Source of the DNA: an uncultured bacterium
Lineage (GTDB): Bacteria; Bacillota; Clostridia; Oscillospirales; Acutalibacteraceae
NCBI GenBank assembly: GCA_949283655.1
Contig: CASDTH010000003.1
Location: forward strand, 124,001 to 188,000
DNA: 64,000 nt
Reading direction: 5' to 3'
The position numbers were made by a program, and so were the translations under genes. Positions 59,836 through 64,000 of the stretch are shown here, in pieces; within the stretch, counting starts at the first letter, position 1; the number at the start of each line of letters is the position of its first letter. The notes beneath the pieces were generated by a model, which was given only the letters and a program-made list of their open reading frames with translations, had not been told where the DNA came from and did not search any database.

Positions 59836-59870
59836 AGTCATGGCCACCTCTTTTAGAGGTGGCCATGACT
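59836..59870. repeat. Perfect 16-bp inverted repeat between the GNAT and helicase genes
   Basis: AGTCATGGCCACCTCT (59836-59851) and AGAGGTGGCCATGACT (59855-59870) flank a 3-base loop. It ends 17 bases from the helicase stop and 33 from the GNAT stop. No T run follows on the plus strand. It may stop convergent transcription, or mark the end of the AT-rich segment. Confidence 0.6.
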
Positions 59871-59887
59871 CATATACAAACATTTAT

Positions 59888-62122
59888 CTATTCCGCTTCA
59901 TTGTGTGCATCGCCGGAGCTGTCTGGAAAAGCACAGGCAGCCGAAAGCGCCTCCCGCAGCCCGTCTGGCTCTAAAAAATCAAAAATAAACTCCTTGCGCA
60001 GCAAATCCAGCGGGATAAATTCATTATATTTGTGCTCGATCTGCACTTTTTCCGGTAGTGGCAGCCCGCTTAAATCCATCTCACCCTCCCATTGGGCCAG
60101 CTCCCGCAGCGCATTTTCAAGCTGCATTTTCGCATCCGGCGCTTTGCTGCGGAAGGTGACTTCCAGATATACACAGGTCCGCCACAAAATCTTGCTTTGA
60201 AACCCGTGCGCACGCAGCAGGAAGTGCAAGGTAAACAGCTGCCGCGTGCCCACCCATGGGAAAATGGCAAATTTATTCTCCGACAGCTGGGTGATCACAT
60301 TTGTCAGAATGCCGGAATTACGCGCCAGGTAGCGGATCTCTTCCAGCCGCTCGCAGCAGGAATCGCTCAGATAGGGATATTGATCCGAACACACCAAAAT
60401 CTGCCGCATCTTCTGCACAAGCACTGTGTGCAGATCTGTTTGAAAATCCACATCCCAATCCACAGTGGAAACGCCCGGCACCAGCTTGACAAAGAGCACC
60501 TTGGCCTGCCGGTTGACCTCCAGCGTCTCCCACGTCCTCCCGGCGAGGGCAAAGCGTGTGCCCTGCGGGTAAATTTTATCCACAGTGCCAATGGCTCGGT
60601 TTTCATCCTTCACGAGGTAATATTCCGGCACCTGAAACACCGCAAGGAAATGGTAGTCGTTGACAATCCGTTCCCCTGCGCGGCCAATCATCAAGCCGCC
60701 GCCCTCCACTTTTTGCAGGTGATCGATTTGAAGCAGATGGTGCAGCAGCATTCGGTAATCCTCCTGCGAAATCTGCCGGAAGCTGGACAGGGCGAGCACG
60801 CCCGCCTCCAATTCCCGCACACTCGCCTCCCCCACCGACAAGAGATAGCTCATCGTCTGATGATACAGCATGGCATAAGGGTAACGGCCCGAGGCGAGAG
60901 GCTCCACCCAATTCTGCTTTGTATACAGCTCGATGATCGCGATCATACGAAGAAAGCTCCAGTTGATTGGGCCAAGCGTATCCGCCGCCGTGGTGTGGAC
61001 ATCGTCGAGAAACGTAAACAAAATTTGCGGCACCTGCCCACGCCTGCCGCAGCGCCCTAGCCTCTGGGCAAAGCTGGAAACCGTTGCCGGCGTGCCAACC
61101 TGCACGACCTGATCAAGCGAGCCGATATCAATGCCAAGCTCCAGCGTGACGGTTGCACCGGTGACGAGCTTTTCCTCCCCCGCTTTCATCTCATCCTCTG
61201 CCTGCTCGCGCAGGACAGCGGAAATATTCCCATGATGCACCCGGTAGACATCGGGGGTTTTATTTTTCAGCGCGAGCTGCCGCAGGTGGGCTATAACGAG
61301 CTCCGTCTCCTCCCGCGAATTGGTGAAAAGGATGGTCTTGCGGTCCAACGTCATGCGGTAGAGGTAATCGTAGTGCGCGGCCTCGCCTGCATCCAGTGCA
61401 CCCTCCGGCGTGGTCTGATCCGCCCGCTGAAAGCGCTGCACCAGCAGCCGGATTTTCTGCTTCTCCGCCTTACAGACCGGTGCGGCACAGCAGCGGCCTG
61501 TGCCGGAGCTCAGCCAGCTTTGCGCGGCAGAGAGGTCACCCAGCGTGGCCGAGAGCCCGATGCGCCTCGGCCGAACGCCCGCCAGGCGCTCCAACCGCTC
61601 CAGCAGGCACAGCACCTGCACGCCGCGCACATCACGCATGAAATAATGCACCTCGTCAATGATGACGAAGCGTAAATCACAAAACAGTTTCACGCACGCG
61701 CCGCGCTTGCGGATCAGCAGGGATTCCAGAGATTCGGGCGTAATCTGCAAAACGCCCTGCGGGTGTTTAAGCAGCCGGTTTTTTTCCGCCTGCGAGGCAT
61801 CCCCATGCCATTTGCACACCGGGAGCTCCGATTCCAGCAGCAGCTCATCCAGCCGCTTGAACTGATCGTTGATCAGCGCCTTGAGCGGGCTGATATACAG
61901 CACCCCCACGGAGTGGGAAGGCTTGTGGTAAAGCTCGGTCAGCACAGGCAAAAATGCTGCCTCCGTTTTGCCGGAGGCGGTGCCAGAGGAGAGCAGCAGG
62001 TGATCCTCCGTGTCGAAAACAATACGGCAGGCCTCCACCTGAATCTCCCGCAGCTCCTGCCAGTTATTTGCATAGATATAATCCTGAATATACGGTGCGA
62101 GCCGGTCAAACATGTTTTCCAC
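59888..62122 (-). CDS. SF2 DEAD/DEAH-type helicase (Lhr/BrxH-like)
   Basis: 744 aa. A superfamily-2 DNA or RNA helicase. Walker A is Gly-Thr-Ala-Ser-Gly-Lys-Thr (47-53). Motif Ia region is Ser-Pro-Leu-Lys-Ala-Leu-Ile-Asn-Asp-Gln (78-87). Motif II is Asp-Glu-Val-His (156-159), motif III is Ser-Ala-Thr (near 194), and motif VI is Gln-Arg-Leu-Gly-Arg-Cys-Gly-Arg-Arg-Gly (near 351). About 320 residues follow the helicase core and are not assigned. It resembles Lhr-like helicases found beside BrxC/BrxD-type ATPases. It is the third gene of the TerB-like/ATPase/helicase operon, 17 bases after the ATPase. Confidence 0.85.
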   Translation of the reverse strand: MENMFDRLAPYIQDYIYANNWQELREIQVEACRIVFDTEDHLLLSSGTASGKTEAAFLPVLTELYHKPSHSVGVLYISPLKALINDQFKRLDELLLESELPVCKWHGDASQAEKNRLLKHPQGVLQITPESLESLLIRKRGACVKLFCDLRFVIIDEVHYFMRDVRGVQVLCLLERLERLAGVRPRRIGLSATLGDLSAAQSWLSSGTGRCCAAPVCKAEKQKIRLLVQRFQRADQTTPEGALDAGEAAHYDYLYRMTLDRKTILFTNSREETELVIAHLRQLALKNKTPDVYRVHHGNISAVLREQAEDEMKAGEEKLVTGATVTLELGIDIGSLDQVVQVGTPATVSSFAQRLGRCGRRGQVPQILFTFLDDVHTTAADTLGPINWSFLRMIAIIELYTKQNWVEPLASGRYPYAMLYHQTMSYLLSVGEASVRELEAGVLALSSFRQISQEDYRMLLHHLLQIDHLQKVEGGGLMIGRAGERIVNDYHFLAVFQVPEYYLVKDENRAIGTVDKIYPQGTRFALAGRTWETLEVNRQAKVLFVKLVPGVSTVDWDVDFQTDLHTVLVQKMRQILVCSDQYPYLSDSCCERLEEIRYLARNSGILTNVITQLSENKFAIFPWVGTRQLFTLHFLLRAHGFQSKILWRTCVYLEVTFRSKAPDAKMQLENALRELAQWEGEMDLSGLPLPEKVQIEHKYNEFIPLDLLRKEFIFDFLEPDGLREALSAACAFPDSSGDAHNEAE

Positions 62123-62139
62123 AGGGCTGGCCCCCTCGA

Positions 62140-63450
62140 TTACAGCTCAAATTCTAGAAATACATCCTCCTGCGCCGCATCAACCGGCAGCATAAAGCCG
62201 CTACCCTCCAAAATTTCCTGCGCGGTGCTAGAAGGGTTTTGATATAGGATGTTGAGAAACTCAATAAAATCCCGGATGATCTCACGCGGCGTGATGTGCG
62301 TATCCGCGCCGACCCGGTTATACTCCACATTCAAAAAGGCGACCAGCTCCCCCTGCGCCAGCTTTGGCTCATAGCCGAACAGCTGCCCATGCATCTGCGA
62401 GAGCTTTTCAATAAGCACAAACATCTCTTCATAGGTGAGCATATCCAGCCGGATGATCGGGGAAAGCATATCCTTCACACCGTCCGCTGTGAACCGGCCC
62501 TCCGACAACCGGGAGCGCAGCGCCTCATAGCTGAACACGCCCTTGTATTTATCCTCAATGCACTGTGGCGTCCCGCCGATCAAAAAGCCGATGTACTGTG
62601 CCTTGCCCTGCAAAACATCGTTATACATGGTGAGGATTTTTTCATAATTGCTCTGGCGGGTTGCGGCGTGCGGAATTTTAAAAAGGTTGACCAGCTCATC
62701 CACAATGACAAGCATCCCCCGGTAGCCCGCATGCACCATAAACGCAGCAAAGAGCTTCAAAAAATCATACCACGTATCATCTGTGACGATAAACCCGATG
62801 CCCAGCTCGCGCTTTGCCTCCGTTTTGGTCTGGTATTCGCCGCGGAACCACCTGAGCACATTGGAGCGTAGCACATCATCCCCATTGAGATAGGCTTTAT
62901 GATACAGCAGGATGGCCTTAGCAAACTCAAACCCGTTGACCATCCCCTCCAGGCTGCCCGTCACCCGGTAAACCTCCTGCTCCACCAGCTGTGCAAAGCG
63001 CGCATCCTCAGGGGAAATGCCCTGCGCTGCAACGGCAGACTGAATGCCGGAAATCCACCGTTCCAGAATCAGCGGCAGCGCACCGCCATCCGGCTTTGTT
63101 TTGGTGGACATATTTTTCATGAGCTCTTTAAAAGTGGCAAGCCCCTGCCCCCGTGTGCCGGTGAAGCGCCGCTCGGGCGACAGATCGGCATCCACCACCA
63201 CAAAGCCCCGCTCTGTGGCATAATTGCGAATGGTCTGGAGCAGAAAGCTCTTTCCGCTGCCATATTTTCCGACGATAAAGCGAAAAGCTGCGCCGCCATC
63301 TGCGATGATATCAATATCGTTTAAAAGCGCGTCGATCTCCCGCCCGCGGCCGACGGCGATATATTCCAGCCCCACCCGCGGCACCACGCCGCCCTTGAGC
63401 GCGTTGAGGATCGTGCTGGTGATCCGCTTTGGGGGATTACTCTGCTTCAT
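62140..63450 (-). CDS. P-loop ATPase of the BREX BrxC/BrxD (DUF2791) type
   Basis: 436 aa. An AAA-like ATPase: Walker A Gly-Lys-Tyr-Gly-Ser-Gly-Lys-Ser (61-68) and Walker B Leu-Val-Ile-Val-Asp-Glu (247-252) in a fold matching PF10923. The N-terminal Pro-Arg-Val-Gly-Leu-Glu-Tyr-Ile-Ala-Val-Gly-Arg-Gly-Arg-Glu is typical of BrxD-like proteins, which occur with helicases in BREX defence and in TerB-linked loci. Its ATG overlaps the stop of the TerB-C-like gene (ATGA, 63450-63447), and the helicase follows after 17 bases. The three products probably work as one complex on DNA. Other BREX genes are not visible. Confidence 0.83.
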   Translation of the reverse strand: MKQSNPPKRITSTILNALKGGVVPRVGLEYIAVGRGREIDALLNDIDIIADGGAAFRFIVGKYGSGKSFLLQTIRNYATERGFVVVDADLSPERRFTGTRGQGLATFKELMKNMSTKTKPDGGALPLILERWISGIQSAVAAQGISPEDARFAQLVEQEVYRVTGSLEGMVNGFEFAKAILLYHKAYLNGDDVLRSNVLRWFRGEYQTKTEAKRELGIGFIVTDDTWYDFLKLFAAFMVHAGYRGMLVIVDELVNLFKIPHAATRQSNYEKILTMYNDVLQGKAQYIGFLIGGTPQCIEDKYKGVFSYEALRSRLSEGRFTADGVKDMLSPIIRLDMLTYEEMFVLIEKLSQMHGQLFGYEPKLAQGELVAFLNVEYNRVGADTHITPREIIRDFIEFLNILYQNPSSTAQEILEGSGFMLPVDAAQEDVFLEFEL

Positions 63451-64000
63451 TTGAACATCACACTCTCTAATTCATCTTGATAATCCGGAAAAACCTGCGG
63501 CACGCCGGCACTTTCCAAAATCGTATCCTCCACAGTATCGACCGCCTTATCGTTGATGCCATCCCAAAGCACCTCCAGCATGATATGCCTTTGCCTAGCA
63601 TAACCGGCCAGCTCCGCGCCGGAAGCGCCGCGCAGCAGCAGCCTAAGCGCCGCGCTCTCCTCCGCGCTCAGGGCGGCAGCAAACCGCTCCCAAGGCCCGG
63701 CTTCCCCCGGCGGTTGGGTAGAGGCGCCCAGCAGGGCAGGCGAAGCCTCCTCATGCGCTTTCGCTTTGCTTCCATCCGAACTCGAATTGGCCATTGCACA
63801 GGGGGCGGCTTCTTCCGGCTCCTGCGGGATTGCCAGCAGCTTTTCCTGCGTGAGCTGCGCCCGCGCGCGGATTTGCTCCAGCTTCTGCGGATCCACTGTG
63901 ACCGTTTTGCGGTTGGAGGCCCGGTAGTAAGCGGCGATCGCCGCGTCAACACAGGTGAAAAAGCCCTCGTCACCACCCGGGAAGCGCGCAAGCTCCGGGG
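63447..64000 (-). CDS. TerB-C-domain-like protein, C-terminal part (runs off the right edge)
   Basis: At least 184 residues are open to the window edge with no stop. A GTG at 63896 is inside the protein, not its start. The visible part has Ala-Ala-Ile-Ala-Ala-Tyr-Tyr-Arg-Ala-Ser-Asn-Arg-Lys, then Thr-Val-Asp-Pro-Gln-Lys-Leu-Glu-Gln-Ile-Arg, as expected for the TerB-C region of TerB-N/TerB-C proteins. A low-complexity Ala/Pro/Ser/Glu linker (about 63860-63650) and a C-terminal helical domain follow. TerB-type proteins are tied to stress and phage-defence loci with helicases and ATPases. It is the upstream visible gene of the operon. The full domain plan needs the sequence beyond the edge. Confidence 0.65.
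   Translation of the reverse strand, partial: PELARFPGGDEGFFTCVDAAIAAYYRASNRKTVTVDPQKLEQIRARAQLTQEKLLAIPQEPEEAAPCAMANSSSDGSKAKAHEEASPALLGASTQPPGEAGPWERFAAALSAEESAALRLLLRGASGAELAGYARQRHIMLEVLWDGINDKAVDTVEDTILESAGVPQVFPDYQDELESVMFK

Follow-up and report, generated by a model that had tools for sequence, protein, structure and literature searches.

Ter-linked DNA-processing systems were reportedly proposed in 2012, when a protein with TerB_N and TerB_C domains was linked to DNA-processing enzymes; that proposal, which PMC10250203 cites as a hypothesis, was a genomic prediction only, and Shango is its tested form. Shango comprises a TerB-like protein (SngA), an ATPase (SngB) and a DEAD/DEAH helicase (SngC) (PMC10250203). 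Cloned from Pseudomonas aeruginosa PA14, it lowered plaque numbers and protected liquid cultures in strain PAO1, and it was independently reported in Escherichia coli (PMC10250203). A domain review lists PF05099 (the classical TerB domain) as a Shango domain (PMC10952713), SngC is grouped with BrxHI, DruE and DpdJ in one antiphage SF2 clade (PMC12278908), and a 2026 review gives the mechanism of Shango as unknown (PMC12926258). BREX type 2 contains a related dyad, BrxD–BrxHI, in which a homologous ATPase and an Lhr-like helicase are encoded by adjacent genes. BrxD is an ORC/Cdc6 AAA+ protein and the proposed loader of BrxHI, the C-terminal domain of which is homologous to Lhr (PMC12839542).

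Here we describe a locus at the right edge of a 64,000-nucleotide stretch of DNA (hereafter the window) that is almost certainly a complete Shango anti-phage system (SngA–SngB–SngC) of the Bacillota type. The sngA gene is cut by the window edge, beyond which the genome sequence continues for 4.2 kb before the contig ends. The features of the locus are as follows, positions beyond 64000 being window-equivalent:

59888–62122, minus strand: sngC, 744 aa, Lhr-like SF2 DNA helicase
62140–63450, minus strand: sngB, 436 aa, BrxD-like P-loop ATPase
63447–64000, minus strand: in-window part of sngA (TerB_C end), cut by the window edge
63447–65132 (C3:187447-189132), minus strand: full sngA gene, 561 aa, start codon GTG
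65162–65173 (C3:189162-189173): LexA-type box GAACATAAGTTC, 30–41 bases upstream of the sngA GTG
65208–65180: promoter-like TTGCCT-17-TACAAT upstream of sngA (one found, 0.2 expected)

All three frames are intact and adjacent in the order A-B-C. The end of sngA overlaps sngB by ATGA and a gap of 17 bases separates sngB from sngC, so that the coordinates and tight coupling given in the original prediction hold, as does its proposal of a defence-type operon, here found to be conserved, that encodes a TerB-family protein together with a BrxD-like P-loop ATPase and an Lhr/BrxH-like helicase. The PADLOC profiles for SngA, SngB and SngC were the top matches, far above the BREX models: SngC for the helicase (3.8e-221), SngB for the ATPase (1.4e-181) and SngA for residues 64–558 of the full-length upstream protein (3.9e-62). 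The number of genes and the domain content are those of Shango from P. aeruginosa PA14 and E. coli, except that SngA lacks TerB PF05099 here. What had been put forward as an incompletely described defence or DNA-processing system therefore already has a name (PADLOC; PMC10250203), and the locus can be removed from the list of unexplained systems. An anti-phage role of the operon in this host is probable. Two features go beyond what we found in the published description of Shango: the TerB-less SngA and the LexA box at sngA.

SngC retains helicase motifs I (GTASGKT, residues 47–53), II (DEVH, residues 156–159), III (SAT, residues 191–193) and VI (QRLGRCGRRG), all at columns that are invariant or nearly so among 39 homologues. 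Its Pfam DEAD and Helicase_C matches are real, and its predicted structure (mean pLDDT 72) matches Mycobacterium smegmatis Lhr (5v9x) with a Z of 24.4 and an rmsd of 9.5 over 526 aligned residues (approximately 22% aligned identity). Because this match spans residues 2–733, the predicted fold is Lhr-like over the full length of SngC, including its C-terminal half. The designation Lhr/BrxH-like helicase was thus sound, whereas the C-terminal half, previously listed as unassigned, belongs to the SngC/Lhr architecture (PADLOC SngC; 5v9x match). Unlike Lhr, which stands alone, SngC is tied to SngA and SngB. SngB carries a Walker A motif (GKYGSGKS, residues 61–68) and a Walker B acidic pair (D251 and E252), again at columns that are invariant or nearly so (25 homologues), and from its homology with BrxD we infer that it may act as a loader of SngC. 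Sequence searches gave no convincing solved relatives of SngA or SngB.

The trio is kept as a neighbourhood in relatives, in line with the original prediction. All three genes are present, in conserved order, in 68 of the 80 best SngB-encoding genome loci, and they mostly overlap or lie within a few bases of each other. Pairwise distances of SngA, SngB and SngC correlate with r values of 0.82–0.92 across 55 complete loci, far above the permutation maxima of 0.34–0.39; the three proteins thus travel together. Divergence is far faster in SngA than in its partners (median identity 40%, versus 79% for SngB and 76% for SngC), as would suit a component facing a changing partner. Clustering of the neighbours of 80 relatives yielded no conserved fourth gene or nuclease partner, and the genes that separate B from C or A from B at some loci are for the most part mutually unrelated (for example, those for LRR/SMI1, VOC-like and GNAT-like proteins). 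Within the family, 11 of 150 genomes carry Shango, and within the class 26 of 391; it is absent from the one same-genus genome sampled, in which homologues of the genes flanking the operon are weak or scattered. Plasmids account for 692 Shango records and the phage collection for none. Among 5,426 E. coli genomes, 793 match a Klebsiella copy by DNA, and in 440 the match covers at least 80% of the query. The SngB tree places an actinomycetotal copy (Raoultibacter) among those of Clostridia, which suggests transfer.

No other defence genes were seen beside the operon, the right flank of which stops after 3 kb at a contig end, and a search for RNA families in the flank gave none. Three minus-strand open reading frames at window-equivalent positions 65336–68153 (L002:6337-9154) adjoin sngA, reach the contig end and correspond to segments of large serine recombinases. 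The N-terminal resolvase domain is missing from two of them, and one consists of a resolvase domain and little else; they resemble broken remnants. At the opposite end, sngC and a GNAT gene converge on a perfect inverted repeat of 16 bp (59836–59870), which has a 3-base loop and no T-run on either side.

Full-length SngA contains both TerB_N (Pfam, 2e-29, residues 77–213) and TerB_C (2.5e-18, residues 406–556). The earlier description of a TerB-C-like protein was therefore correct as far as it went, and reading beyond position 64000 recovered TerB_N, but the classical TerB domain (PF05099) gave no Pfam match at E values up to 1. The same profile is absent from the close homologues in the SngA alignment (0/52), from ten further class-wide SngAs and every further Clostridia SngA scanned, and from two Paenibacillus SngAs. 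By contrast, it was found in all eight long-form SngAs scanned from Pseudomonadota and haloarchaea (Sulfitobacter, Mesorhizobium, Pseudoalteromonas, Halocatena, Klebsiella, Roseobacter, Sphingobium and Roseovarius), with the Halocatena match, at 24.3 bits, falling just below the cut-off of 24.4. Absence of the profile is compatible with a diverged fold. No TerB fold was listed among the structure matches for the middle of the short form, a region in which long and short SngAs align unreliably and which may nonetheless contain one. In the SngB tree, the TerB-less and TerB-bearing forms lie on opposite sides of one branch. Given the missing PF05099, we keep the locus out of the classical, TerB-bearing form of Shango, while its identity as the three-gene system stands. 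Since the PADLOC SngA model recognizes TerB-bearing and TerB-less proteins alike, detection tools probably include the short form in Shango already, even if it is undescribed.

We also examined a predicted structure of the SngA homologue from locus L004 (40% identity to the SngA studied here; mean pLDDT 84). Foldseek returned no significant fold match for it, and residues 481–565 showed a weak resemblance to winged-helix domains (best Z 6.5) that may reflect a common arrangement, making a winged-helix end in the TerB_C domain of SngA possible. As the rest of SngA is without a fold match, it is the rate of divergence that points to a role as target sensor, a tentative suggestion that we place a little short of an even chance. 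The Clostridia form narrows the minimal Shango machine, as TerB is lacking in gene sets maintained intact by evolution, and for this reason attention shifts to TerB_N/TerB_C and the SngB–SngC motor.

The 14-bp form of the LexA-type box at sngA, CGAACATAAGTTCG, lies between the promoter and the sngA start, just 3′ of the −10 element TACAAT. The recA box (CGAACAAATGTGCG) has the same layout after its −10 element, and lexA, which like recA is encoded in this genome, carries a related palindrome (CAAACAAATGTTTG). Exact GAACN4GTTC sites number eight in the 2.59-Mb genome, one of them at sngA. Other exact sites (L115:1501, L119:1501 and others) lie near a gene for a radical-SAM-like protein (MTTRTFERIVITNKC...) and a small membrane-protein-like open reading frame, and the genes near them are candidate members of the SOS regulon of the organism.

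With one half-site substitution (G to A, or C to T) allowed, a relaxed motif precedes sngA in 22 of 66 close relatives; among other gene starts at the same loci, its frequency is 7 of 628 (p 9e-19, a value made too small by relatedness among the loci). Although the window had been inspected before the motif was chosen, it is itself outside the count. Control patterns at these loci showed no excess. The boxes of the relatives vary in sequence and are found on either side of the −10 element, which suggests that LexA boxes were acquired at sngA repeatedly. In a second, broader sample of mostly more distant Clostridia, the excess was small and fell short of significance (3 of 23 versus 7 of 122, p 0.20); we therefore rejected SOS control as a class-wide rule and regard it as restricted to this clade and not general to Shango. 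Pseudomonadota differ in this respect: searches upstream of six sngA genes for LexA motifs of the E. coli and alphaproteobacterial types gave only one weak match (that of Sulfitobacter, which starts its record, was left out). In the literature searched, a single paper mentions both Shango and LexA, and it draws no connection between them.

On the strength of the box and its setting, control of this sngA copy by LexA is quite likely, and that the operon is a functional, LexA-controlled Shango system, taken as a joint claim with the finer mechanistic steps set aside, is likely too. The box offers a testable handle on the timing of Shango action and would place Shango among SOS-linked defences. 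For the wider lineage, we see an evenly balanced case that a Bacillota lineage of Shango works without TerB and was repeatedly placed under LexA, as an SOS-inducible second-wave defence answering DNA damage or phage replication. If so, TerB would be dispensable, and TerB_N/TerB_C with the motor pair would be the working core.

Several other readings of the operon were considered. The ATPase had been called BrxC/BrxD-type, and indeed its Pfam BrxC_BrxD match is real (2.5e-160); together with the BrxHI profile match of the helicase (1.1e-122), this would fit a decayed or satellite BREX locus, that is, a type 2 BrxD–BrxHI dyad that has lost its core. However, the ATPase scores 602 bits as SngB versus 150 bits as BrxD and the helicase 735 bits as SngC versus 409 bits as BrxHI (PADLOC), and the ATPase fails the curated NCBIfam BrxD equivalog (154.3 bits, cut-off 350). 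PglZ and BrxL (the latter of BREX types 1 and 4 only) had no match in the 99% complete genome of this organism, in searches that were positive in control genomes, and no BREX set follows past the window edge, in agreement with the predicted absence of BREX partners. The same trio also recurs in dozens of genomes with no conserved further partner. Unlike the type 2 dyad, the pair described here thus has no BREX core, belongs to separate profile families and is partnered by SngA. BREX was accordingly rejected as the parent system, and the remnant reading, very improbable on these scores, is refuted for practical purposes.

The SOS box itself makes a repair role a serious rival: the operon may be an SOS-regulated repair or replication-stress module, in which the Lhr helicase and its loader act on the damaged host chromosome and phage resistance is a side effect at most. 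Lhr is a repair-associated helicase and SngC is Lhr-like, and the box beside the sngA promoter is placed as at recA and enriched in close relatives. Set against this are the very patchy presence of the operon in its family and class, unlike that of core repair genes, the transfer suggested by the Raoultibacter copy, the recombinase remnants beside the operon and the proven anti-phage activity of the family (PMC10250203), which leave the repair reading improbable, although worth keeping in view. The SOS link is also a point for a system directed against plasmids or other mobile elements, or for an abortive-infection effector, raised on the stress of incoming DNA and acting on replicating foreign DNA or arresting the cell. 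Shango is common on plasmids and absent from the phage collection, and no nuclease domain was found. Yet plaque reduction and culture protection are published (PMC10250203), and no toxin-like domain was found; we consider this reading unlikely.

For the preferred reading, a LexA-controlled Shango defence, we infer a sequence of steps from the directly supported features, namely family identity, intact motor motifs, operon conservation, co-divergence, BREX absence and the LexA-type box. LexA would keep expression low in this clade until entry or replication of phage DNA, or other damage, gives rise to RecA filaments and induction. SngA, with its helical TerB_N and possible winged-helix TerB_C end, might then recognize the invader DNA or a replication intermediate and direct the motor pair to it. 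SngB, an ORC/Cdc6-type AAA+ ATPase like BrxD, would load or activate SngC, an Lhr-type DNA translocase that would disrupt the DNA transactions of the invader. Because Pfam found no nuclease domain in SngA, SngB or SngC, the block would most likely act on phage DNA by remodelling or stripping it, and host nucleases would do any cutting. We give this loader-plus-translocase scheme about an even chance.

Some distant loci have distinctive surroundings. Among the alphaproteobacterial plasmid loci (L101, L102, L103 and L083), three plasmids carry SbcCD-like nuclease-ATPase gene pairs in the vicinity of Shango. In Roseobacter denitrificans, the genes located between Shango and the SbcCD-like pair are CBASS-like (SAVED, ThiF and nucleotidyltransferase), and in Sulfitobacter (L083) genes for a PD-(D/E)XK nuclease and a UvrD helicase directly follow sngC. 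On a Halocatena salina plasmid (L098:1-10529), the archaeal Shango adjoins a BREX-5 pglZ and a helicase gene. Two distant trios (L178:3021-8180 and L179:2553-8264; SngB identity 35–37%) have an upstream protein with TerB_C and no Pfam TerB_N, in one case with a TM2 domain, and are possibly a further subtype.
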